Positions 24,529 to 36,372 of a DNA stretch of 64,000 nucleotides are shown piece by piece. The translations under genes were made by a program, and so were the position numbers. Positions within the stretch are counted from its first letter, which is position 1, and the number at the start of each line of letters is the position of its first letter. The DNA is from Andreprevotia chitinilytica DSM 18519 (GTDB lineage: Bacteria; Pseudomonadota; Gammaproteobacteria; Burkholderiales; Chitinibacteraceae). Location of the stretch: assembly GCF_000711875.1 (NCBI RefSeq), contig NZ_JONM01000002.1:376769-440768 (forward strand), written 5' to 3'. The notes beneath the pieces were generated by a model that was not told where the DNA came from, searched no databases, and worked only from the letters and a program-made list of their open reading frames with translations.

Positions 24529-24944
24529 GCCTGCTCGCAGATTGGGGCTGGCTGGGCGGCTTGTTCGCTTCGGCTTTTCTCTCCGCGACCTTGCTGCCGG
24601 GGAACTCGGAGGCGGCGCTGGCCGCCTATCTGCTCAAGTGGCCGCAGCAACTCTGGCCAGCCCTGCTGATCGCAACTGTTGGCAATAGCCTGGGCGGCGC
24701 AGTGACGGTCTGGATGGGGCGACGGATTCCGACCGGCCAAATGCCTCGTCGCGTCGAGCTGCTGCAACGCTGGGGCTCGGTGCTGTTGCTGGGCACTTGG
24801 TTGCCGGTGATCGGTGATGCGCTTTGCCTGGCCGCCGGCTGGTTGCGTTGGCCGTGGCGGCGGATCTGGCCTTGGCTGATTCTGGGCAAATTTGCCCGCT
24901 ACGGCCTGATTGCTTTAGCCAGCCATGCATGGCTGGTTCATTGA
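24525..24944 (+). CDS. yqaA: YqaA-family small DedA-like membrane protein
   Basis: A protein of about 139 residues with four hydrophobic segments, close to E. coli YqaA: FASAFLSATLLPGNSE, TVGNSLGGAVTVWMGR, and LPVIGDALCLAAGWLR are shared family motifs. Related DedA proteins act in membrane lipid or drug-resistance physiology; the function of YqaA is not established. No ATG or GTG gives a full N-terminus. A TTG at 24561 would remove the residues before the first segment; CTG 24525 overlaps the cyaY stop as CTGA and has GAGG upstream, and CTG 24531 is another option. The start is therefore uncertain. Confidence 0.75.
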   Translation: MSLLADWGWLGGLFASAFLSATLLPGNSEAALAAYLLKWPQQLWPALLIATVGNSLGGAVTVWMGRRIPTGQMPRRVELLQRWGSVLLLGTWLPVIGDALCLAAGWLRWPWRRIWPWLILGKFARYGLIALASHAWLVH

Positions 24945-24963
24945 TTTGAAACGAGGAGTTCGC

Positions 24964-26439
24964 TTGAAATCCACTCGCTGCCTGAGCGCGATCGCGCTGA
25001 GTTTAGCGCTGGCCTTGCCGGCCGGTGCGGATGATCTCAACACCACCTTGCCTAGCCTGCCTGATCTGGGCGCTAGCTCGCAGGAAGGGCTGACTGGCGC
25101 GCAGGAGCGACAGATCGGTGAATCGGCGATGCGGGAAATCCGCCGCAGTGGCGAATTGCTCGATGATGCGCAAGTGCAAGCCTACGTGAACGCACTCGGC
25201 AGCAAGCTGGTGGATGCCTCGGGCTCCGATATCCAGTTCACTTTCTTCCCGGTCGACAACAAACAGGTCAACGCTTTCTCGATTCCTGGCGGGTATGTCG
25301 GCGTGAATACGGGGCTGATCGTCATGGCGCAGCACGAGTCCGAACTGGCGGCCGTGTTGAGCCACGAAATCGCGCATAACACCCAGCATCATCTGGCACG
25401 GATGGTGGAAGGGCTGCGTTTTACCCCGTGGATGATGCTGGCCTCGCTGGGCCTGGCCATCCTCGCGGCCCGGGCCGGCAATGGCGATGCTGGTATGGCT
25501 GCGGTTGCGACAGGGCAGGGCTTGGCGATTCAGAAGCAGCTCGATTTCACCTATGCATTCGAGCAGGAAGCCGACCGCATCGGCATGCAAACGCTGACCA
25601 AATCGGGCTTTGATCCGGCCGCGATGCCGACCTTCTTCGAGCGCCTGCAAAAGAGCAACCGGCTGTTCGAATCCAATGCGCCAGAATTCCTGCGCACCCA
25701 CCCGGTGACCTACAAGCGGATCGCGGATGCCGAGGCGCGGCTCAAGGATCGTGCTTACAAGCAATACCCCGATTCGGCCGATTTCCTGTTCATGCGTGAG
25801 CGGGCCCGCGTGTTGCAAGGACAGGCCAAGGAGCTGGTCGAGTACTACCAGAAGTCCTTGATCGAAAAGCGCTACACCAACCTGCCAGCCCATTTGTATG
25901 GTTTGGCGCTGGCGCAGCTGCAGGCGCATCAATTGGCAGAAGCCGAAAAATCGCTCGCGTCGGCGAAGCAGGCATTTGGCGCGAAGCACTCGCACCCGGC
26001 GCTTGAATCACTGACCGGCGACATCCAGTTGGCCGAAGGGAAGTCGCAAGATGCCGTGGCCACTTACGCCAAGGCGGTTCGCCAGTTCCCGGACAAGACG
26101 TCGCTGCGCTACGGTCAGCTCGATGCGATGCTATCCGCCGGCCAAGCGCCCGAGGCACTCAAGCTGGTGCAGGAATACGAGGTGAGCTATCCATCCGACG
26201 CACTGTTTTACCAGCGTGAATCGCGTATTCAGGAAAAGCTCGGCAAGCAGGCGGAAAAGCACAAGGCGCAGGCCGAGTACTATGCGCGGCTCAATGAAAA
26301 TGGCGCTGCGATCGAACAGCTGCAATTGGCCAAGAGTCAGCCGGGCGGGGATTTCTACTTGATGTCCGGCATCGAGGCGCGGCTGCGCGAGCTGGAAGCG
26401 CAAAACAAGCTGGATAACGAGAACAAGCCGAAGTTATAA
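24964..26439 (+). CDS. bepA: M48 metalloprotease of the BepA type with TPR region
   Basis: A 491-residue periplasmic protein that in relatives both degrades and assists outer-membrane barrel proteins such as LptD. Signal peptide (ending PAGA), then the M48 domain with zinc motif HEIAH at residues 134-138 (SHEIAHNTQHH) and the third ligand in FEQEADRIG. The C-terminal half is alpha-helical TPR (for example LYGLALAQLQAHQLAEAEKS). The start is TTG 24964 with GAGGAG five bases before it. The gene follows yqaA closely, and lptM nearby gives a local envelope theme. It ends 29 bases before the converging TolC-type gene, marking the left edge of the AT-richer island. Confidence 0.9.
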   Translation: MKSTRCLSAIALSLALALPAGADDLNTTLPSLPDLGASSQEGLTGAQERQIGESAMREIRRSGELLDDAQVQAYVNALGSKLVDASGSDIQFTFFPVDNKQVNAFSIPGGYVGVNTGLIVMAQHESELAAVLSHEIAHNTQHHLARMVEGLRFTPWMMLASLGLAILAARAGNGDAGMAAVATGQGLAIQKQLDFTYAFEQEADRIGMQTLTKSGFDPAAMPTFFERLQKSNRLFESNAPEFLRTHPVTYKRIADAEARLKDRAYKQYPDSADFLFMRERARVLQGQAKELVEYYQKSLIEKRYTNLPAHLYGLALAQLQAHQLAEAEKSLASAKQAFGAKHSHPALESLTGDIQLAEGKSQDAVATYAKAVRQFPDKTSLRYGQLDAMLSAGQAPEALKLVQEYEVSYPSDALFYQRESRIQEKLGKQAEKHKAQAEYYARLNENGAAIEQLQLAKSQPGGDFYLMSGIEARLRELEAQNKLDNENKPKL

Positions 26440-26468
26440 GTCGGCTTGTTGCGGTGCGCAGGATAGGT

Positions 26469-27896
26469 TCATTTGATCGCCCAAAGTCCTAATTTGCCAA
26501 GACTGCCCGCCAGTTTTAATCGCGCTGTTTGCCAGTTTGACAATGCCTGAACACGCTGCTGCTTGGCGCCAGCAAGATCGCTTTGCGCTTTGAGCAGTTC
26601 CAGGATATTGCCTACCCCGGCCTTGTAGCGCCCTTGCGCAACCTGATAGGACTGCGAAGAACTCGCTAATAAATAGCTCGTCGATTTGAGGTTCTCGGTT
26701 TCCGTGGTTAAAGACTGATAGCTTGTCCAGACTTCCAGTGCAACTTGCTGCTCGGTATCTTCGAGAATTGCCTCTTGCTGTGCAAGCTTGGCACGAGCGG
26801 TCTGAATCAGGTAGGCACGATTAAATCCGTCAAACAGCGGGATGCTGATTTGAATGCCGATTTTCTTGTTGAGAATAAAGGTATTCGTCGGCAGCTGCCC
26901 GACTTGATCGGTATGAGTGATGTTGCCGACCAAAGAGACGGTTGGATAAGCTGCCGCCTGGTTGACTCTTAATTCGGCGTTTGCCGCGAGTAGCTGTGCG
27001 CGCGCCGCAACCATCTTCGGATGATTTTTATTGGCATAGGCAATCAAGTTATCTAGTGATTGGACGAATTCCGTATCGGGGAGCGCCGGGTTCATCGGCT
27101 GCAATGTGAACTCGGTGTTGACTGCCAATCCCATTGCAATTGCAAGCTTTCCTTGAGCGGTTCTTAGCCCCCCCTCTGCCTTGACCCGATCCAGTGATGC
27201 TTGCGCAAATGTAGTTTGGGCGAGCAGTTTGTCGGCTAATGCCCCAGCCCCGGCAGTATATTTTGCTTCGGCGGCCATGTAGTTTTCGCGAGCAGATTTT
27301 TCTGATTGTCGACTGGCGTCCAACGCGCCTTGCGCCGATATCAAATCGAAATAATCCTGGGCGGTGTCCATAAATACTGTCTGGAGCGAGGCATTCTGCA
27401 GGGCATTCGCCGCTGCCAATAGTTGCTGATGCTTCACCAGATCATTATGCCGGGAGCCAAAATCAAAAATCAGCCAGCTTAGATCCATACTGGCATTACG
27501 TGTTGTCATGGGGGCGATCGTGCCAAATTGCGGAAATCCTTCGTATTGCGTGTTGATGTTTTCCCTGGTTACCGCATAGGTGGCATTAATCGTGGGCAGG
27601 TAAGCGGCTTCCTTAATCCCGAGTTGTGCAGCTTCATACTTCACATTTGCCCAGGCCTGTTTGGTGGCGTGATTGTGACAAAGTGCGCCTTCGATGGCGT
27701 CCAGCAGATTCAATTGCAATGCGACTGATTTGCTGGCGCACGGGTCCTGAATGGAATCCAGTAATGCGATTACTTTTTCCCGTGGGGGAAGGGTCAGATC
27801 TTCAGTGGACAACGGATCGTCAATTCTGGCTGCGTTCGCCGACGACAGTACGGAGGTCATTGAAAACACGAATAGACATTGCAGGAGTAGATTCAT
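26469..27896 (-). CDS. TolC-family outer-membrane secretion protein
   Basis: A 475-residue outer-membrane efflux/type I secretion channel. Signal peptide to SSANAA, then two repeated OEP halves of long helices: LGIKEAAYLPTINATYAV and LRVNQAAAYPTVSLVGNI start the beta-barrel portions, each followed by coiled-coil helices. It overlaps the end of the upstream peptidase-ABC gene by 4 bases (27893-27896), so the exporter is a coupled operon. It completes a tripartite channel with the ABC and HlyD-like proteins. The gene is AT-richer than its flanks. Confidence 0.88.
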   Translation of the reverse strand: MNLLLQCLFVFSMTSVLSSANAARIDDPLSTEDLTLPPREKVIALLDSIQDPCASKSVALQLNLLDAIEGALCHNHATKQAWANVKYEAAQLGIKEAAYLPTINATYAVTRENINTQYEGFPQFGTIAPMTTRNASMDLSWLIFDFGSRHNDLVKHQQLLAAANALQNASLQTVFMDTAQDYFDLISAQGALDASRQSEKSARENYMAAEAKYTAGAGALADKLLAQTTFAQASLDRVKAEGGLRTAQGKLAIAMGLAVNTEFTLQPMNPALPDTEFVQSLDNLIAYANKNHPKMVAARAQLLAANAELRVNQAAAYPTVSLVGNITHTDQVGQLPTNTFILNKKIGIQISIPLFDGFNRAYLIQTARAKLAQQEAILEDTEQQVALEVWTSYQSLTTETENLKSTSYLLASSSQSYQVAQGRYKAGVGNILELLKAQSDLAGAKQQRVQALSNWQTARLKLAGSLGKLGLWAIK

Positions 27897-30055
27897 TCCA
27901 GCACAACTTCCGGCTTGTCATCCGCTGCGGTCAAGGCGTTCGGCAGCATCACGTCGGATATGATTCTCCCGCCAAACAGCGTAATAACCCGATTTGCCGA
28001 GGCGATGGTTTCCGGACGATGGGCGATAATCACTCTGGTCATATTGAGGGATTTCACCGCAGAATTCACCTGATGTTCACAAGAAATATCCAGATGACTG
28101 GTGGCCTCGTCCAGAAAGAGTATTTTAGGGCGTTTATATAATGCTCTGGCCAGAAGAACCCGTTGTTTCTGCCCGCCCGACAATACGGTGCCCATATCGC
28201 CCACCAATGAGTTGTATCCCATGGGCATGCTGGAAATATCGGCTGCAATAGAGGCCATTTGCGCGCATTCTTCAATCCATTGCTGGTCCGCCTTCGGGTC
28301 AAAGAAACTGATATTGTCCGAGATCGAACCGGCAAATAGCACGTCATCTTGCATGACGGTGCCGACCATGCTCCGAAAGCTCGCCAGCCCCAGTTTCTTG
28401 ATGCTCACCCCTCCGATCAATATATCGCCCTTGGTGGGGGGGAGGATTCCAAGCATGACATTGATCAACGTGGTTTTGCCGCAACCGGACGGCCCTACGA
28501 TGGCCACCGATTCACCTGCAGCAATCTTGAAATTGACCCGATTAAGTATATAGGGCTCATTTTCAGCATATTGAAAACGCAGACCGATTGCTTCAATGGA
28601 TGGATCGAGCTTCGCGTCATCTGATACCAGCCGATAGCCCAGCGATTCTTCTGGATCAGTCAGTACAATATCGGCCAGCCGCTCACCATGCAGCTGGAGC
28701 ATCCTGACCTCGAAAAATTTATCAATCAGCGAGCTGACGCGATTTTCGAACTGGCCTTTGTACGAATTGAACGCCATCAATATGCCAACGGTGAAATTGC
28801 CGTCCATCACCATTTTTGCGCCTAGCCAAACGATAACGATGTTCTCCAGGCCAAAAATCACGCCATTCATGATTGAGTAAAGTATCGTCAGCTTTTGCAT
28901 GCGCAAGTCTGCATTGATCTGGTCGATAACCAGCGTGAGCCAGGTTGAGCGCCGTTCATCCTGGCGTTGAAATAACTTGATTGCCTTTATGCCGCGTACC
29001 GTTTCCATGAAATGGCTTTGCTGTTTTGCGGCATGGATGATTTGCTCTCCTGTCGCATTACGCAACGGGCGATACCATGCCCAACGTCCGAAAGCATATA
29101 AAACCATTGCGCCAGATACGATCCATGCCAGTAATGGGCTATAAATGAACATCATGACGAGCGTAACTAGCGTCATAAGGCCGTCGATGATGGCCGCGAG
29201 AAAAGAGGTGGTCAGGGTCCGTTGAATTTCATCGATCGAGCCAAAGCGGGACACGATATCCCCCAGATGCCGCTTCTCGAAGTGTTGCACGGGCAGCCGC
29301 ATCAAGTGCGTGAACACATTGGCACGCCATTGAATGTTCAGCGTGGTTCCCATGTACATCAAAACCCATGAGCGAATTGCGCTGATTGCCTGTTGCAACA
29401 ACATCAGAATGCCAAACCCGAGTGCCAAGGTGGTAAGCAAGTCGATATCTGCCGATACGATGACATTATCAATGACCCATTGCATGAAGAAGGGGCTGAC
29501 CAGCGAAAATACTTCCAGAGAGATGGCAAGCAACATGATCTGGGAAAATGATTTCCAGATGCCGCTTATCTTTCCGGTCATATCCCGCAGCTTGACGGGC
29601 GATTTTTTTTCCTGTGACTGGAATCCGGAATTAGGCCATAGCTCCAATGCCACTCCGGTAAATGCGGTAGATACTTCATGCAATTGAAGTTTTCGCAATC
29701 CAAACGCCGGGTCATGGACCGTGATGGATTCCGCGCTGACTTTTTTCAATACGACAAAGTGGTTGAAGTTCCAATGTAAAATACAAGGGAGTCTTAACTG
29801 GTCCAGCTCTTCCAGTTCCAGCTTGACTGGTCGTGCGCCAAGTCCCATCTGATCGGCGATGGTAATCAGGTGGGCTAATGTCGCGCCTTTGAGGGAGATC
29901 GTGAATTTCCGTCGAAGGGAGGCCAGATCGCTATGATGGCCATGAAATCCGGAAATCATTCCCAAGCATGAAAGACCACACTCGGCGGATTCGGTCTGAA
30001 GAATGATGGGGAGCTTTCTGTTAAGGCCAAAAGAAATCCGTTCGAGATATGACAT
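27893..30055 (-). CDS. Peptidase-containing ABC transporter (CvaB-type, double-glycine processing)
   Basis: A 720-residue bacteriocin exporter. Residues 1-125 are a C39 peptidase that cuts after Gly-Gly leaders: Gln20, Cys26 (QTESAECGLSCLGM), His99 (NHFVVL) and Asp115 (VHDPAFG) form the active site, all present. Next come six transmembrane helices (about 160-440), then the ATPase with Walker A GPSGCGKTT, signature LSGGQKQ and Walker B ILFLDEATSHLD. It would cleave the leader of the peptide at 32995 and export the core. It is 20 bases downstream of the HlyD-like gene and coupled to the TolC-like gene. Confidence 0.93.
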   Translation of the reverse strand: MSYLERISFGLNRKLPIILQTESAECGLSCLGMISGFHGHHSDLASLRRKFTISLKGATLAHLITIADQMGLGARPVKLELEELDQLRLPCILHWNFNHFVVLKKVSAESITVHDPAFGLRKLQLHEVSTAFTGVALELWPNSGFQSQEKKSPVKLRDMTGKISGIWKSFSQIMLLAISLEVFSLVSPFFMQWVIDNVIVSADIDLLTTLALGFGILMLLQQAISAIRSWVLMYMGTTLNIQWRANVFTHLMRLPVQHFEKRHLGDIVSRFGSIDEIQRTLTTSFLAAIIDGLMTLVTLVMMFIYSPLLAWIVSGAMVLYAFGRWAWYRPLRNATGEQIIHAAKQQSHFMETVRGIKAIKLFQRQDERRSTWLTLVIDQINADLRMQKLTILYSIMNGVIFGLENIVIVWLGAKMVMDGNFTVGILMAFNSYKGQFENRVSSLIDKFFEVRMLQLHGERLADIVLTDPEESLGYRLVSDDAKLDPSIEAIGLRFQYAENEPYILNRVNFKIAAGESVAIVGPSGCGKTTLINVMLGILPPTKGDILIGGVSIKKLGLASFRSMVGTVMQDDVLFAGSISDNISFFDPKADQQWIEECAQMASIAADISSMPMGYNSLVGDMGTVLSGGQKQRVLLARALYKRPKILFLDEATSHLDISCEHQVNSAVKSLNMTRVIIAHRPETIASANRVITLFGGRIISDVMLPNALTAADDKPEVVLE

Positions 30056-30075
30056 TTAGCATATTCTTTATTTGA

Positions 30076-31347
30076 TCAAACTTTTCCAGACAGACTGTAC
30101 AGCGGTTCCAAAACCCACTCGTAAAGGCGTCTTGTATCAAGCAAAACATCTGCATCCAGTAGCATGCCGGCCTGAAGCGGCTGCGGTTTTCCGTACGCAT
30201 TGATGAATTGGTGCGCCAGATTAACCGTGATGGAATACAGCGGTTCGTTGCTTCCGGTTGTTCCGTTCATGGTTAGCGTCGCGGCATCGTTTAATTCCTT
30301 CGCAGGGACGGCCGTCCTGGAAACAGATACAACGGTGCCAAGCGCATGCCCAAATTTCTGGTACGGATAGGCTTGAAAGCGCAACAGGACGCGGTCCCCC
30401 GCTTTGATGAAACCAATCGTTCTGCTCGGTGCATATAGATTTGCCAGTAGTTTGGCGCCCTTCGGGACGACGCTGACTAGCGGTTTTGTCGTGTCGACCG
30501 CCTGACCAGGTTCTGCGACCACTGCCGTAGCGATTCCGGGGCCGGGAGCGGTAATCAACAAGCCTCGCTTGGCCTCGCTCTCTGTCAACTCCTGACCGGC
30601 ACTCGCCAGATTCCGCTTGATTTGTGCCAGCTGGTTTTGCTGCTTGAGGGGGAGGCTAAGTAAATCATTTTGTGCGGCCGCCAGATCACGGCCCACATTG
30701 ATGTGATCTCGCTCAAGGCCTTGAAGCCGATTGCGTTGATCCAGAAAGTCTTCCTGCTTTTGTTGTAATTGATCTTTCGAAATATAGTCGTGAGTAAGCA
30801 GATCTTTGTAGCGGGCGACCGCATCTTCAGCAAGTTTCATTCTGCTGTTTTGAACTTCGATCTGGCTTTCGAGCTTAAGTAATTCCGATTCAAGCGCTGT
30901 TATTTTCTTTACCAGGGCGTTGTGGTCTTCTTGTTGAATGGATGCGGTTTTTTCCAGTTCTTCACGCAAAGATTGCTGCCGCTTCTCGACTTGACCGCTA
31001 ATGGCAGCTTGGGTGTTGCCTTGTGTGCTGCTTTGACGCTCGCTCGATAGCACATAAAGTAATTCCCCTTGCTTGACCGGCTGTCCTTCCTGGATATGTT
31101 TCTCCAGCACAATGCCGGGTTGTGGGGCATAGACCTTGATTACCCCTGCATCTGGAATCAGTTGGCCATTCACCGTTGCTCGTGATGTGTAAGTGCCCCA
31201 AAAAAGAAAAGCAATTACCACCAGTCCTACAGCAGTTCCAAATGCGGTAAGAAACGTAAATGAAACCGGCCGAACCAGAACGATCTTGCCAAGCCACGGC
31301 GTTTGACGCGCTTCAAGGGCGGTACGACGGTACAGGTTATGCTTCAC
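30076..31347 (-). CDS. HlyD/CvaA-type membrane-fusion protein
   Basis: A 423-residue periplasmic adaptor. One N-terminal transmembrane helix (FLTAFGTAVGLVVIAFLFWG), a lipoyl-like half motif (GVIKVYAPQPGIVLEKHIQEGQPVKQGE), a long coiled coil at about residues 120-260, the second lipoyl half (AEAKRG-type GLLITAPGPGIATAVVAEPG), and a beta-barrel region. It links the peptidase-ABC protein to the TolC-like channel. The start is GTG at 31347 (GTGAAGCATAAC); the Shine-Dalgarno is weak. A 57-codon open frame with a good ribosome site lies just upstream. Confidence 0.9.
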   Translation of the reverse strand: MKHNLYRRTALEARQTPWLGKIVLVRPVSFTFLTAFGTAVGLVVIAFLFWGTYTSRATVNGQLIPDAGVIKVYAPQPGIVLEKHIQEGQPVKQGELLYVLSSERQSSTQGNTQAAISGQVEKRQQSLREELEKTASIQQEDHNALVKKITALESELLKLESQIEVQNSRMKLAEDAVARYKDLLTHDYISKDQLQQKQEDFLDQRNRLQGLERDHINVGRDLAAAQNDLLSLPLKQQNQLAQIKRNLASAGQELTESEAKRGLLITAPGPGIATAVVAEPGQAVDTTKPLVSVVPKGAKLLANLYAPSRTIGFIKAGDRVLLRFQAYPYQKFGHALGTVVSVSRTAVPAKELNDAATLTMNGTTGSNEPLYSITVNLAHQFINAYGKPQPLQAGMLLDADVLLDTRRLYEWVLEPLYSLSGKV

Positions 31348-31914
31348 TCGGTTGTCTCTGATTATCTGGACTTCTAGCCTGGATGCCAGGAAGTGCCAAA
31401 ACAGGCTGCATCAAAATTGATTGGGCTGTTTTAAATCGAAATGTGCCGCAATTTGCCGCAAGAAACCGCTGGTTGCGCGAACTTGTCATGTGAAATTAAT
31501 TTGTAAGGACGGCACTCTATCGATGAATCATGACAGCTTGATTGCACAAGCAATTCCTTGTTGCTGGATTGTATTGTCAATACATGGCGTTGTACCTCAC
31601 TCATTGCATGAGTCTCCTGAATATCAGGATATGGTGATGTTGACGCTAACCGGCATTTGAAAGAAATATGTCTAGATGTTCTCTCCGTAGATGTAATGCC
31701 AAATAACGCATTGCACACGCGCCTTCTGTCCGTCAATGGGGATATCGGCAATCATATATCAGCAATCATTAATGCTGCCGTGATATCCAACAATTTCCAG
31801 GTGCTTGATTTGTCTCTGTCTTGTTTTTGCCAAGAATGGGTCATGACGATGTAATAATCCCCACTCATGCTGCGTTGCAATTATTTGACTGGTATTGAAC
31901 GACTGGGGTATTGA
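31348..31914. promoter_or_regulatory. Divergent regulatory region of the microcin island
   Basis: 567 AT-rich bases between the leftward exporter operon and the rightward kinase-peptide genes. Promoters for both must be here. I could not define a clear operator or sigma-70 pair. A 57-codon leftward frame with a good ribosome-binding site is listed separately. Two rightward frames (31522-31660, 31657-31854) lack ribosome sites and were not accepted. Confidence 0.5.
31431..31604 (-). CDS. Candidate 57-residue peptide upstream of the exporter genes
   Basis: A short frame beginning MSEVQRHVLTIQSSNKELLV with AGGAGA nine bases before the ATG. It contains three Cys in the second half (SSCHDSSIECRPYKL, AVSCGKL) and no Gly-Gly leader motif. 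It precedes the HlyD-like start by 83 bases on the same strand. It could be a second peptide, a small regulator or a chance frame. No similarity is recognised, and the case rests on the ribosome site and position. Confidence 0.3.
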   Translation of the reverse strand: MSEVQRHVLTIQSSNKELLVQSSCHDSSIECRPYKLISHDKFAQPAVSCGKLRHISI

Positions 31915-32796
31915 ATGAATATCTGCATTTCTAATCTGCATGTGCCGATTGACGATATTGCTCTTGTTCCGTCGGCGCGACTGGCTATGTGCCAAACACC
32001 GGAAAGCGTTACCGGGGATGTCCATTGGATGGCGATTGAAAACGGGAATGTCTATCTGAATCACGCGGGCGGTATTGCAAAATTCCTGGTCAGTGGCGGG
32101 CGCCAAATTGATTTTGAGATTGCGCCGGATATCAGCGAGCAAGATCTGCAGTGCATGTTGATGAGCGCTCCTATGGGGGCATTGATTCATCAGCGTGGAG
32201 AGTTGCCGATTCATGGTGCAGGTTTGGTATCCCCAAAGAACGATGGTGTGACTGTCATCGTCGGCAATTGTGGTGCTGGAAAATCAACAACAAGTGCTGC
32301 GCTGGCCAATCAGGGGTGGCACCTGATTGCAGATGATATATGCCGAATCTCGCCATCGCCCCAACAGGACGAGACAGGTGAATTGGTCGTGCATCGTGGT
32401 TATACGAGAATAAAACTGACTGACGATGCATGTGGCAGATTGGGGTTTGATAGCAGCATTCTGCCGCGCGTCAGCAGCTTTGTAGATAAATACTTTTGGG
32501 AAGCCCCACATATTGGTGGCCCGGAATACGCGCCGAAACGGCTGATCCTGCTTCATCGGCCATCGGGAACCGCCGCGCTGGAGTGGGGGAGGTGTGTGGG
32601 TGAAGTGGCAATTAGAGCGCTGATGCCACATATCTATGCGCCAAATATCGGCTCTACCATCAATGCGCAGAATAGTATGTTTTTGCTTTCCCGGTTGGTT
32701 CAAATTGCTTCGGTTTATGTTTTGTTTATCCCTGCAGGGGTAGGGCCGAAAGAAGTTGCCGATGAAATAACACGTTTTATCCATGAAGACGAGTGA
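31915..32796 (+). CDS. HPr-kinase-like (HprK-related) serine kinase
   Basis: A 293-residue protein carrying the HprK/P kinase core without the classical N-terminal domain. Walker A is GNCGAGKST at residues 117-125, followed by the HprK hallmark HLIADD (136-141); LPIHGAGLV precedes the P-loop as in other HprK-like proteins. True HprK acts on HPr Ser46 in Gram-positives. Truncated HprK relatives also occur in RiPP clusters, where one kind phosphorylates a C-terminal Ser of a lasso-peptide precursor (paeninodin type). Here it sits 198 bases before a peptide gene whose product ends Ser-Ser, so peptide phosphorylation is a plausible role. The start is ATG 31915, with GGGG upstream. Confidence 0.75.
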   Translation: MNICISNLHVPIDDIALVPSARLAMCQTPESVTGDVHWMAIENGNVYLNHAGGIAKFLVSGGRQIDFEIAPDISEQDLQCMLMSAPMGALIHQRGELPIHGAGLVSPKNDGVTVIVGNCGAGKSTTSAALANQGWHLIADDICRISPSPQQDETGELVVHRGYTRIKLTDDACGRLGFDSSILPRVSSFVDKYFWEAPHIGGPEYAPKRLILLHRPSGTAALEWGRCVGEVAIRALMPHIYAPNIGSTINAQNSMFLLSRLVQIASVYVLFIPAGVGPKEVADEITRFIHEDE

Positions 32797-32994
32797 GCCA
32801 GGCTTCGGCTGGAAGGTGTGTGCAAACTCGAACTGGTTAAAGCGCTGGGCTTGGGGAATCCGTCCATCAGGATTGGCGTTGCAGTGCAAATGCAGCTCGA
32901 CAATTCACGCAGGATTGTTTCGTACGAACATTGGGTGAGCCGATGTACGCTTTTTATGGTGCGTCAAACCATATTCACTAACTGGAGGTGTGCT

Positions 32995-33162
32995 TTGAAA
33001 GATTTGACAATGGAAGAAGTGAATGATGTCTCTGGCGGTATTCCTTGGACGACCCCGGCTCTTGTCGCCCTGGCAGACACTGGCTCTTTAGGTCCGCTGG
33101 TTTGGGCCTTTGGCATTGGTTACGGCATTGGTACACTCGCTTACAATTACTTCAGCTCTTAA
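32995..33162 (+). CDS. Class II microcin-like precursor with double-glycine leader
   Basis: A 55-residue peptide starting from TTG 32995, with TGGAGG ten bases before. The leader MKDLTMEEVNDVSGG is a textbook double-glycine leader (hydrophobic residues at -4, -7 and -12 relative to the cut, Gly at -1 and -2). The 40-residue core begins IPWTTPALVALADTG, continues through a Gly-rich hydrophobic helix with GIGYGIGTLAYNYF (overlapping GxxxG), and ends Ser-Ser. No Cys is present. Such cores insert in membranes of related bacteria. The exporter at 26469-31347 carries the matching peptidase. An ATG at 33010 would remove part of the leader and is less likely. Confidence 0.82.
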   Translation: MKDLTMEEVNDVSGGIPWTTPALVALADTGSLGPLVWAFGIGYGIGTLAYNYFSS

Positions 33163-33182
33163 GTTAATGGTTGGGTAATTGG

Positions 33183-33211
33183 TAGCCGTGCAGTAAAATG
33201 CACGGCTATTT
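33183..33211 (+). terminator. Hairpin after the microcin gene
   Basis: TAGCCGTGCA-GTAAAA-TGCACGGCTA, a 10-bp stem followed by only TTTG. Partial termination would give more precursor than downstream immunity mRNA, but this is speculative. Confidence 0.5.
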
Positions 33212-33297
33212 GATGATCGACGTAATATGGGCTTGTTGATGGCGGATCGATTTGATACTGCCATTGTTGAATTGTCTGGATTTTTGGGGTCATTGAA

Positions 33298-33585
33298 ATG
33301 AGAAAGGGTTTGTATATCCTGGCTCTGGTGCTGCTCTTTGCGTCTGTGGCGTATATGATTGATCGCAATATTGTGTTTCTTCTGTTGCTGTCGTCTGCCT
33401 TGGGTTTGCTCGCCATGCTGGAGATGCCAATAGATTGGGACAGAAAAATACCGCTGCGCAAAGGTTTTGCCTTCTTGTCCAAGGAGAGGCTGCAAATTTC
33501 AATGGTTGGCAAATTTTCCGGTGGTATTTCGACAATTACGTTACTTGCGTACTTTGTTCTCAAATTTGCGGATGTCAAATGGTGA
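33298..33585 (+). CDS. Small three-helix membrane protein, candidate microcin immunity protein
   Basis: A 95-residue protein with hydrophobic segments at about residues 4-21 (GLYILALVLLFASVAYMI), 24-43 (NIVFLLLLSSALGLLAMLEM) and 74-90. The loop between the second and third is basic (DRKIPLRKG, SKERLQ). No known family is recognised. Immunity proteins for class II microcins are typically small membrane proteins encoded next to the precursor, and this gene lies 135 bases after it on the same strand. Weak Shine-Dalgarno (GGGG at about 33286). The assignment is from position and form only. Confidence 0.6.
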   Translation: MRKGLYILALVLLFASVAYMIDRNIVFLLLLSSALGLLAMLEMPIDWDRKIPLRKGFAFLSKERLQISMVGKFSGGISTITLLAYFVLKFADVKW

Positions 33586-33717
33586 TGGCCCATAGGGCTG
33601 CCTGATCGAATCTGGCGAATCAGGGTTGGGGTTGTCGTGCGCAGGCTAGTGCTGCTTTGCATATACAAGCCCCATCAGCCCAATGGCGTGCACCGCGCTT
33701 GACTGGCAAAGCGGTAT

Positions 33718-34155
33718 TTACCCGCCCAGTTTCTTCAACCGCTCCCGCAGCACATCCAGATACGTCGCCGGGCTGGGCGCATGGCCGTGGCGTTGCGCCT
33801 GCCAGATCATCTCCCCCAGTCCTTCCATCATTTCATGCAGCGCCTTGTGTTCGTCGCCGGTTGCGGCGCACAGCTGGCCGAATAGCGCTTTTACGCCTGC
33901 CGGCTGATCGATAGAGAGTTGTTCCTCGATAGCCAGATGCATGCTGATGTGCAGGAAGGGGTTGGTCTCGCCATGCTCCGGCGGCCAGTCGCGATCGAGG
34001 TAGTCCTCGGATAAATACCCGTGGTATTCCGGGTGGCGGGCGAGCACGCCGACGGTCATTTTCTCGATGTCTTCCAGCGGCGCACCCGCTTGGTATTTGC
34101 GCCAACTGCCGATGAAAAAGTGTCGTGCTTGATCGCGGGAGGGGTTGAACAGCAT
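33718..34155 (-). CDS. DUF1841 family protein
   Basis: A 145-residue soluble protein matching the betaproteobacterial DUF1841 family: FNPSRDQARHFFIGSWRKYQ at the N-terminus and NPFLHISMHLAIEEQLSIDQ in the middle, whose His/Glu-rich helices resemble a metal-binding bundle. Function is unknown. The gene is leftward. Its start (34155) lies 5 bases from the end of a MITE-like element, so the natural promoter has either been displaced or is supplied by the element. Confidence 0.85.
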   Translation of the reverse strand: MLFNPSRDQARHFFIGSWRKYQAGAPLEDIEKMTVGVLARHPEYHGYLSEDYLDRDWPPEHGETNPFLHISMHLAIEEQLSIDQPAGVKALFGQLCAATGDEHKALHEMMEGLGEMIWQAQRHGHAPSPATYLDVLRERLKKLGG

Positions 34156-34160
34156 GTTTA

Positions 34161-34426
34161 GGCTCTGTTGACGTAGGTTTTGTGGATCGCGTTTGCCCGG
34201 CTTTGGGCCTATTGCCAGGCGAAAGACACGCAGCGTAATGAATTACGCAAGTGGCTTTCAACACCGCAAGAGGCCCAAAGCCGGGCAAACCCTTTGGGCG
34301 AAGCCGACTTTTGCGGTCACTCTGTGTTGTAAGTCGCTGACATAGCCGGTTATGCGGCGCGCCTTACGCCTTGATTGACCGCAAAATTCGGCATCGCGCG
34401 ACCGCAAAACCTACGTCAACAGAGCC
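34161..34426. mobile_element. MITE-like element with nested inverted repeats (266 bp)
   Basis: Perfect 22-base terminal inverted repeats (34161-34182 and 34405-34426) begin GGCTCTGTTGACGTAGG. A second perfect 20-base pair lies inside (GTTTGCCCGGCTTTGGGCCT at 34191-34210, complement at 34271-34290), and a third short palindrome GCGTAAT-GA-ATTACGC sits between them. No transposase frame is present, and no obvious target duplication flanks it. The right part also repeats GACCGCAAAA in direct copies (34377-34386, 34400-34409). I read it as a non-autonomous element mobilised by a transposase encoded elsewhere. Confidence 0.75.
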
Positions 34427-34517
34427 CAAGGTCTACTCTGAAAGCTACTACTTGTGGCATGAACCGGGTATTTTCCGCCTATCCCGCGTTTCACACCATC
34501 TATCTGGAGCACAACCC

Positions 34518-34997
34518 ATGGCTAACCTCTACGACTTCACTGTCACCGATATCCACGGCGCGCAAAAACCGCTCAAGGATTTTGAAGGGCAGGTTTTGCT
34601 GGTCGTCAATGTTGCGAGCCAGTGCGGTTTCACGCCGCAATATGAAGGGTTGCAATCCCTGTATGCGCGTTTGCGCGGGCGGGGTTTTGCGGTGTTGGGT
34701 TTTCCGTGCAACCAGTTCGGCTCGCAAGAGCCGGGCAGCGAGGCGGAGATCGAAACCTTTTGCCAGAGCAAGTTCAACGTGGATTTCCCCTTGTTCGCCA
34801 AGATCGATGTCAATGGCGGCAATGCCGCGCCGCTGTATCGTTTCCTGAAAAAAGAAGAGCCGGGGATTCTGGGCACCGAGGCGATCAAGTGGAACTTCAC
34901 CAAGTTCCTGATCGATCGCAATGGCCAGGTCGTGAAGCGTTTTGCGCCGACCGCGACGCCGGCGGATATCGGCGCCGATATCGAACGTCTTCTTTGA
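34518..34997 (+). CDS. Glutathione peroxidase (Cys type)
   Basis: A 159-residue thiol peroxidase that reduces hydroperoxides. The catalytic tetrad is visible: Cys in NVASQCGFTPQY, Gln in GFPCNQFGSQEPG, and Trp-Asn in IKWNFTKFLID. Length and motifs fit the BtuE/Gpx family with Cys in place of selenocysteine; many such enzymes use thioredoxin rather than glutathione. The start is ATG 34518 with GGAG upstream. The gene lies just right of the MITE-like element, and the C13 peptidase gene follows after 31 bases. Confidence 0.92.
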   Translation: MANLYDFTVTDIHGAQKPLKDFEGQVLLVVNVASQCGFTPQYEGLQSLYARLRGRGFAVLGFPCNQFGSQEPGSEAEIETFCQSKFNVDFPLFAKIDVNGGNAAPLYRFLKKEEPGILGTEAIKWNFTKFLIDRNGQVVKRFAPTATPADIGADIERLL

Positions 34998-35028
34998 GCG
35001 CAACCCCACACATACCGCCCGACGAACC

Positions 35029-36372
35029 ATGCCCACCCACGCGCTCGTCAACCCGTTCACATCTGCGTTCCAGGCGCTGGTTTTCCGCCGCGTACCGCGC
35101 GGGGGCGTACCCCCACGCTGGCCGCTGCTCGTCGTTGTCCTGATCGCGTTGCTGACCGATATCGCCGTCGGCTTTGCCTTTGGCGAGGGTGAGATCTTCA
35201 TGCCGCAGAATATCCCTGGCTGGGGATTTGTCGGCATGCTGCTGTTCGTGATCGGGCAGTGGGGGGATCGTCGCCCGGATAGCGACTGCGGCTGGCTGCT
35301 GTGCGGGTTGTACTTTGCTGCTGGCGCGCTGCTGTCATTGTTGTACTACGGGGCGTGGCTGGCTGTGCAAGAGTGGGCGTCCGCCAAGTGGGCGCATCGA
35401 TTTGGTGTTGCGGTGTGGTTTGCCGTTCCGGTCTGGTTTGGTCTTGCTCTAGGCGCCGCAGCCGGGCGGGGGATTGGGTGGCCGCGCTGGCGGATCGTGG
35501 CCTTGGCGCTGCTGGTCGTCTGCTTGCTGTTTGCCGAGCGGGCGCTCTTCCCCTATGCGAATCACCTGTGGCGACCTGATTTTTCCACTTTGCAAGATCC
35601 ACCGCCGCCGCCGCCCAAGCTGGCCTACGAGGAATCCATCTATGGCGAGCCCGGTGTGCTGAACGATGCGCTCGATGCGATCCTGCCGGGCAAGCGTGGC
35701 AAGCCGGAGGTGTTTTCGATCACGCTGGCGGGCGATGCCGAGCAGGAAGTGTTTCTGCGCGAGGCGCGCTCGTTCGATGCCTTGTTCCACCAGCGCTTTG
35801 GCACCAGTGGTCATTCCATCGTGCTGGCCAATCACGATAGCGTGACCGGTGAAATCCCGATTGCCTCGCGCACCAGTCTCAACGCAGCGCTGCTGCGCAT
35901 GGGGCAGCAGATGAATCGGGAAGAAGACGTGCTGGTGTTGTATCTCACCTCGCATGGCGGCAAGAACCATGACTTCCTGCTGGACGACGCGCCGCTCGAA
36001 CTCGATCCGATCACACCGCAATGGTTGAAGCAGGCTTTGCAGGATGCCGGGATTCGCTGGCAGATCATCATCGTTTCGGCCTGCTATTCCGGCGGCTATG
36101 TTGCGCCGCTGGCCGGGCCGAATGTGCTGATTGCCACGGCCGCGGATGCCAAGCACACCTCGTTCGGATGTGCTGACGAGAACGATTTTACCTATTACGG
36201 TGAAGCGCTTTACCACGCCTTGCAGCGTGAGAAAAACTGGGTGGCTGCCATTGAAATGGCACAGCGCAATGTGTCGGCGCGGGAAAAACGCGAACACATC
36301 GAACCGTCACACCCACAATTGTCGGTAGGGGCCGCAATCGAGCGTAAGTTACTGGATTGGCAGGCGAAATAG
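35029..36372 (+). CDS. Membrane-anchored C13 (legumain/caspase-fold) peptidase
   Basis: A 447-residue protein. Residues of about 30-180 carry four to five transmembrane segments (WPLLVVVLIALLTDIAVGFAF, FVGMLLFVIGQW, and others). A Pro-rich linker (DPPPPPPK) leads to a C13 domain with catalytic His309 in YLTSHGGKNHDF and Cys352 in VSACYSGGYVAP. The family includes legumain and GPI transamidase catalytic subunits. Bacterial substrates are largely unknown; processing of exported proteins is inferred from topology. Start ATG 35029 lacks a strong ribosome site and may depend on the gpx gene upstream. Confidence 0.85.
   Translation: MPTHALVNPFTSAFQALVFRRVPRGGVPPRWPLLVVVLIALLTDIAVGFAFGEGEIFMPQNIPGWGFVGMLLFVIGQWGDRRPDSDCGWLLCGLYFAAGALLSLLYYGAWLAVQEWASAKWAHRFGVAVWFAVPVWFGLALGAAAGRGIGWPRWRIVALALLVVCLLFAERALFPYANHLWRPDFSTLQDPPPPPPKLAYEESIYGEPGVLNDALDAILPGKRGKPEVFSITLAGDAEQEVFLREARSFDALFHQRFGTSGHSIVLANHDSVTGEIPIASRTSLNAALLRMGQQMNREEDVLVLYLTSHGGKNHDFLLDDAPLELDPITPQWLKQALQDAGIRWQIIIVSACYSGGYVAPLAGPNVLIATAADAKHTSFGCADENDFTYYGEALYHALQREKNWVAAIEMAQRNVSAREKREHIEPSHPQLSVGAAIERKLLDWQAK

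Follow-up and report, generated by a model that had tools for sequence, protein, structure and literature searches.

The Moraxella catarrhalis plasmid pLQ510 carries a bacteriocin system, McbABCI, in which inactivating mcbA, mcbB or mcbC abolished killing and mcbI protects (PMC2761928). The class II microcin sets of the Enterobacterales comprise a double-glycine (GG) precursor, a peptidase-containing ABC transporter (PCAT) with Cys, His and Asp, an adaptor, a TolC-type channel and a small membrane immunity candidate, and the cores of these peptides are highly variable (PMC9746304). For lasso peptides, the kinases known before BsfK phosphorylate the C-terminal Ser of the precursor (PMC10368454). 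Here we analysed a 64,000-nucleotide stretch of Andreprevotia chitinilytica DSM 18519 (contig NZ_JONM01000002.1, forward-strand positions 376,769 to 440,768; hereafter the window), in which a 7.3 kb island of six genes brings together a GG precursor, its predicted exporter and an HprK-like kinase. We favour the reading that the island is a self-contained, horizontally acquired class II microcin-like cassette whose kinase would phosphorylate the C-terminal Ser of the peptide before export, and we put the probability of this reading at about 0.5. Gene content, catalytic motifs, leader, exporter relatives and insertion are all read from the sequence itself.

Comparison with described systems

As in McbABCI, the island combines an HlyD-like adaptor and a C39-ABC exporter (McbB is 58% identical to that of the island) with a GG-leader peptide (McbC, MRELLLDEVRSISGG) and a small putative immunity gene downstream. 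The McbC core is, however, larger, and its likeness to the island precursor lies in the leader only; neither a kinase nor a channel gene is among the listed features of pLQ510, and mcbC and mcbI overlap, whereas the island genes for the precursor and the membrane protein lie 135 bp apart. The island has counterparts of all the components of the Enterobacterales sets, and differs from them in its dedicated TolC-like gene, its divergent units, its kinase gene and a core with no match in the family libraries used. With the paeninodin-type lasso systems it shares a kinase of the same motif and fold, as well as a peptide with a C-terminal Ser. Unlike those systems, it has a GG leader with a C39 exporter instead of a W/YxxP leader, no PqqD or B2 match in its genome and no cyclase found in 20001-45000. 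The linear polyphosphorylated peptides (LPP) resemble the island in joining a linear peptide to an HprK-like kinase, and depart from our reading of it in that the phosphorylation is on Ser3 (PMC13381572). Finally, at a locus from the same class (L068, 8083-16718) an HprK-like kinase also lies near a C39 peptidase-ABC gene, at ~4.3 kb; unlike the island, this locus holds PqqD, TfuA, YcaO and an ORF (open reading frame) that by resemblance is sulfotransferase-like, and is thus a YcaO-type peptide cluster.

An island of six genes flanked by bepA and DUF1841

The island (26440-33717, 7278 bases) fills the interval from bepA to the DUF1841 gene and is organised in two divergent units (Table 1). The minus-strand unit is transcribed in the order adaptor, C39 peptidase-ABC, channel, and the plus-strand unit in the order kinase, precursor, membrane protein, with 198 bases between the first two. 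A preliminary description of this DNA, made from the letters and the ORFs without database searches, had named the precursor, the exporter, the HlyD-like adaptor, the TolC-like channel and the small membrane protein in two divergent units, and all five were found as described; the sixth gene, that of the kinase, had been overlooked.

Table 1. Coordinates, in the window, of the island genes and of the features flanking them
Feature	Position	Strand	Evidence or remark
TolC-like outer membrane channel, 475 aa	26469-27896	-	Pfam OEP 5.6e-51
C39 peptidase-ABC exporter (PCAT), 720 aa	27893-30055	-	Pfam Peptidase_C39 1.1e-35, ABC_membrane 6.6e-43, ABC_tran 1.7e-32
HlyD-like periplasmic adaptor, 423 aa, GTG start	30076-31347	-	Pfam HlyD_3 2.7e-15
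HprK-like kinase, 293 aa	31915-32796	+	directly upstream of precursor, same strand, intact frame
Precursor peptide, 55 residues	32995-33162	+	ORF with Shine-Dalgarno sequence; leader statistics; leader matches to GG peptides
Membrane protein, 95 aa, candidate immunity protein	33298-33585	+	hydropathy, size, position
bepA	24925-26439	+	left flank; name taken from the preliminary description
DUF1841 gene	33718-34155	-	right flank; Pfam DUF1841 2.4e-53
MITE-like element (miniature inverted-repeat transposable element)	34158-34429		28-nt terminal inverted repeats (93%), two inner inverted-repeat pairs

The G+C content at third codon positions (GC3) was 0.48-0.59 across the six island genes, against 0.74 for both bepA and the DUF1841 gene, in agreement with the low GC noted earlier for this region. 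Homologues of bepA and of the DUF1841 gene adjoined in all eight relatives tested, two of them from the same genus, with intergenic distances estimated at anything from an overlap to ~350 bases, so that the island is best read as an insertion between these two genes and the cassette as horizontally gained. This supports the transfer that the preliminary description had suggested, although of the two edges on which it had drawn only the left one was right: bepA stops at 26439 and the channel gene begins at 26469, leaving the 29-base gap that it had given, while the MITE-like element is ruled out as the right edge because it sits past the DUF1841 gene. A second copy of the end of this element was searched for in the window, and none was found. 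An imperfect 19-nt direct repeat (16/19; 26448-26466 and 33631-33649) brackets the island genes. We do not claim it as a target-site duplication, the scan having given 16 other families, mostly chance-like, and it could be either chance or a remnant of the insertion.

A double-glycine precursor and its predicted exporter

The precursor starts with a TTG six bases after GGAGG (upstream sequence ctGGAGGtgtgct) and is made up of a 15-residue leader, MKDLTMEEVNDVSGG, and a 40-residue core, IPWTTPALVALADTGSLGPLVWAFGIGYGIGTLAYNYFSS, just as had been proposed from the reading frame. The core contains no Lys, Arg or Cys, has a calculated isoelectric point of ~4, a grand average of hydropathy of 0.76 and, in unmodified form, a calculated average mass of 4161.7 Da, and ends in NYFSS, that is, in two Ser. 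Its leader resembles those found beside related exporters, including MRELSIAEVEEVSGG and MTEMTVQEIEEVSGG at one locus (L178) and that of McbC given above. For counting, we used a leader pattern written by hand after the leaders of the precursor and of the exporter loci had been seen. It had one match in the six-frame translation of the window and none in 100 dinucleotide shuffles; 10 of the 46 related exporter loci matched, against none of the 48 kinase loci that served as control. Since the pattern was written post hoc, independent tests are provided only by the shuffles and by the control loci; their counts rule out a chance origin of the GG motif.

The likeness of the precursor to other GG peptides is mainly confined to the leader. 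No homologue of the core was detected in Pfam, NCBIfam, PHROGs, 43 genomes of the family or plasmid records, and hence none among non-antimicrobial proteins; homology of the latter kind is what, by the preliminary description, would have refuted the microcin assignment. NCBIfam gave a sub-threshold match of the leader to the cerein 7B model (E 0.5). Searching the 43 family genomes with the precursor returned weak matches only; the best non-self one (L003, E 0.02) was rejected, as it overlaps a long sulfatase-like ORF, and two matches in Leptospira plasmid records were discarded too (E of at least 4, inside other genes).

The exporter retains an intact triad, with Cys26, His99 and Asp115 at the positions previously given for them when counted on the translation. 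The start of the channel gene overlaps the stop of the C39-ABC gene by 4 bases. The channel also matches TIGR01844 type_I_sec_TolC (3.2e-55) and the adaptor TIGR01843 (2.3e-36), each under the curated cut-off. Relatives of the exporter were present in 42 of 399 genomes of the order (E 1e-200) and in 19 of 369 of the class (E 1e-120), own genome counted in both; the former were 44-72% identical, self apart, and 72% was the nearest relative found. At E 1e-100 there were 1089 matches in plasmid records; among the rows listed, the best came from Paraburkholderia ginsengisoli (67%) and Acinetobacter (61%), followed by pLQ510. The 46 exporter neighbourhoods were 20 of the 21 non-window places in the class, 6 of 25 listed plasmid rows and 20 of 54 listed places in the order; 11 were shorter than 12 kb. 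Each of the six nearest loci (L175-L180) holds at least one GG-pattern ORF, and genes related to that of the channel at E < 1e-30 occur in the Paraburkholderia record and in four genome loci (L176, L177, L186 and L193). Together with the Moraxella relative, these loci bear out the precursor and the exporter of the class II microcin that the preliminary description had proposed, an account that stood in these parts and had left out the kinase. Cleavage and export of the precursor by its own PCAT system is very probable from the intact motifs and from what is known of the family.

The 95-residue protein has two strong N-terminal hydrophobic segments and a weaker C-terminal one. It belongs to no family in Pfam, NCBIfam, PHROGs or PADLOC, and has no match in plasmid records or in the 46 exporter loci; whole genomes were not searched. 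We consider it a reasonable candidate for self-immunity.

Several observations concern exporters elsewhere. In the same genome, a second C39-ABC/HlyD exporter, 52% identical to that of the island, lies on another contig (L098, C7 18500-37500), accompanied by an OEP-like gene and by three GG-pattern peptides, which gives the strain two export systems of this type. Annotated cupin-domain genes precede the adaptor genes of the Acinetobacter and Moraxella relatives (L117 1-671 and L118 39-797), and may be further tailoring genes. A related exporter on the Klebsiella sp. plasmid pmk4 (L119) has genes annotated as radical SAM, methyltransferase and lysine acyltransferase for neighbours, which suggests that such exporters may also serve modified peptides.

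An HprK-like kinase upstream of the precursor

The kinase carries the motif H100, G117-x-x-G120-x-G122-K123-S124 and D140-D141, so that the eight-residue motif of the lasso kinases, as given for BsfK, is complete (PMC10368454). In an alignment of 13 sequences the invariant residues include H100, G117, G122, K123, S124, D141 and K192, with G120 and D140 conserved in at least 90%. Family models scored under their curated cut-offs (Pfam Hpr_kinase_C, 3.1e-05; TIGR04352 HprK_rel_A, 9.4e-07), and PADLOC and PHROGs gave weak matches only, mostly to the P-loop. When a profile built from the kinase alignment was compared with the PDB, HPr kinases ranked first among solved structures. We also modelled the protein with AlphaFold2 from a 6-sequence alignment. 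The best of five models had a mean pLDDT (predicted local distance difference test) of 75.7, the others 62-66, with residues 1-36 poorly modelled (below 50). This model superposed on L. casei HprK/P (1kkl_C) with a Z score of 14.1 and a root-mean-square deviation of 2.5 over 134 residues, and on E. coli PEPCK (2pxz) with a Z score of 15.2 and a deviation of 3.6 over 240 residues, the PEPCK chains outscoring HprK/P. The model thus predicts an HprK/PEPCK fold for the island kinase.

A search of the genome contigs with the single kinase sequence found no relative, and an alignment-based search found at least six. Among the relatives is a Priestia protein, labelled an aldolase in the record, that is the kinase of a lasso cluster annotated as paeninodin; the island kinase aligns with it at 30% over residues 55-181.

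Company of the kinase relatives and Ser at peptide ends

We examined 48 neighbourhoods of kinase relatives, comprising 10 of 31 non-window places from one search, 7 of 7 and 6 of 6 listed places from two others, 20 stretches that cover 22 of 26 non-window places from a fourth, and 5 of 12 plasmid records. Within 8 kb of the kinase, 33 of the 48 hold a PqqD-like gene, 33 an asparagine-synthase-like gene and 26 a B2-like gene. These labels come partly from annotation and partly from resemblance. The reference proteins for asparagine synthase, B2, sulfotransferase and nucleotidyltransferase came out of seven loci that are themselves among the 48 and so necessarily match their own references, and PqqD was checked with Pfam in two loci. 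Three loci (L146, L239 and L255) showed none of these partners.

The annotated Priestia precursor ends in TFES. Over the 48 kinase loci a leader-based pattern returned 21 small ORFs; a W/YxxPx(L/V/I/M) leader is present in six of these, each of which ends in Ser (LTFS at L251 and L256, QHS at L064, VHS at L129, RAS at L138 and GFS at L143), whereas of the other 15 none has this leader or ends in Ser. An earlier, stricter pattern had yielded four ORFs, of which those at L251 and L256 were credible, and most of the kinase loci yielded no recognisable precursor. Among the GG-pattern ORFs beside related exporters, 1 of 40 ends in Ser.

The genome of the strain has no match at E 0.001 to the PqqD model PF05402 or to the B2 model PF13471, and three reference cyclase-type proteins found no asparagine-synthetase-like cyclase in 20001-45000, the span to which that search was confined. 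We therefore rejected a lasso-peptide reading of the island.

Proposed pathway and alternative explanations

In the pathway that we favour, the 55-residue precursor would be made with its GG leader and phosphorylated in the cytoplasm by the HprK-like kinase on its terminal Ser (...NYFSS). The C39 domain of the PCAT would then recognise the leader and cut after Gly15, and the 40-residue hydrophobic, Gly-rich core would leave through the PCAT, the HlyD-like adaptor and the TolC-like channel. Outside, it would act on competitors, its hydrophobic, Gly-rich character pointing to the membrane as the probable site, while the 95-residue membrane protein would protect the producer. The steps are not equally secure. 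That the exported core is antibacterial is likely, if putative; that the kinase phosphorylates the island precursor is, from gene order and kinship, an even call; and the C-terminal Ser as the site is tentative, the Ser-Ser end being only suggestive.

Several results weigh against this pathway. The C39 peptidase occurs within 8 kb in 1 of the 48 kinase neighbourhoods, that of L068 with its PqqD, and none of the 46 exporter neighbourhoods holds an HprK-like kinase. The pairing of kinase and exporter therefore rests on one locus, and this is also the only one where the kinase was seen with a GG/C39 system without PqqD. Between the kinase and precursor genes there is a terminator-like stem (32928-32946), and no promoter-like site was listed there; the stem may be chance, because the stretch holds two stems of this type where 2.9 would be expected. 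The kinase scores under the family cut-offs and has no close homologue: its better matches cover part of its length at ~27-39% identity, and of the 43 family genomes 40 gave no match at E 0.001, the remaining three being its own genome and two with partial matches. BsfK acts on Ser3, needs the leader and works with a partner that is an RRE, or recognition element of ribosomally made, post-translationally modified peptides (PMC10368454), and no PqqD-type RRE partner for the island kinase was found in its own genome. LppK likewise phosphorylates Ser3, in a linear peptide (PMC13381572). Kinship with these two kinases, whose target is not the C terminus, leaves the site of the island kinase unfixed. 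For the immunity protein, the evidence is its size, position and hydropathy alone.

Some of these points would suit an ordinary, unmodified class II microcin, with the kinase a hitchhiker or the remnant of a lost lasso-type cluster that leaves the peptide untouched. The lack of the kinase at related exporter loci fits such an explanation, as do the 198 bp without a clear gene, and with the stem, that separate kinase and precursor, and class II microcin sets are described as having five components and no kinase (PMC9746304). A decaying remnant, however, would sit poorly with an intact frame that keeps every motif residue. The kinase also shares the low GC3 of the island and its gene immediately precedes that of the precursor in the same orientation, the genome has no match to the PqqD or B2 models, and the core ends in Ser-Ser. 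We regard this explanation as a serious one, though it has the odds against it.

Two further explanations concern the role of the peptide and the target of the kinase. The exported peptide could be a signal or autolysis peptide instead of an antibacterial one, like the gonococcal Nap peptides. These carry GG motifs, share features with microcins and are encoded on an island together with a C39 peptidase, yet no antimicrobial activity could be detected for them (PMC11798529). The core of the Andreprevotia island is, moreover, acidic and not cationic. But the Nap peptides themselves are cationic and use a FapF-like channel (PMC11798529), unlike the TolC-like channel of the island, and the functionally tested relative of the exporter belongs to a system in which the bacteriocin kills and an immunity gene protects (PMC2761928), which makes this explanation unlikely. 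The kinase could also have another target, a regulatory or transport protein, and thereby tune how the microcin is expressed or exported. The island protein is predicted to share the fold of HprK/P, and the true HprK/P enzymes regulate HPr; nevertheless, its relatives lie mostly in peptide-tailoring clusters, as the PqqD-like, asparagine-synthase-like and B2-like neighbours counted above indicate, and we consider such a target improbable.

Other features of the window

Rfam (gathering threshold) and tRNA scans over the window gave no match, and promoter and terminator counts were not above those of shuffles. Just upstream of the adaptor gene, a 57-codon ORF (31431-31604, minus strand) with a ribosome-site-like sequence contains Ser and Cys and has no GG leader; it is a candidate gene only. 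To the right, 34942-36372 (plus strand) encodes a protein with a Peptidase C13 (legumain-like) domain (Pfam 6.8e-24).

Implications

The exporter and leader alone make the island a further example of known microcin-type systems. With the kinase, it might represent something else, a phospho-microcin: a linear GG peptide to which a dedicated kinase adds phosphate(s) at the C-terminal Ser without a PqqD-type RRE. We hold this possible, at somewhat less than even odds, and hold in the same tentative way that a lasso-type tailoring kinase has here been rebuilt into a C39/GG export system. In the literature searched we found no mention of a phosphorylated microcin or bacteriocin or of a bacteriocin kinase, and no paper, by title or start of abstract, on a kinase in a GG cluster, which does not prove absence from print. 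Siderophores are the uptake handles of class IIb microcins. As a guess, a phosphate end might likewise be an uptake handle at the outer membrane of the target, or might keep the peptide inactive in the producer.

Even without phosphorylation, the island adds a microcin-type system whose core has no homologue in the searches made. If the kinase does act on the peptide, a tailoring chemistry new to class II microcins would be added to them, and the work of HprK-like peptide kinases would be shown to extend beyond RRE-guided pathways. The island would then offer a compact six-gene system, cutting and export included, for asking what phosphorylation does to a secreted peptide.

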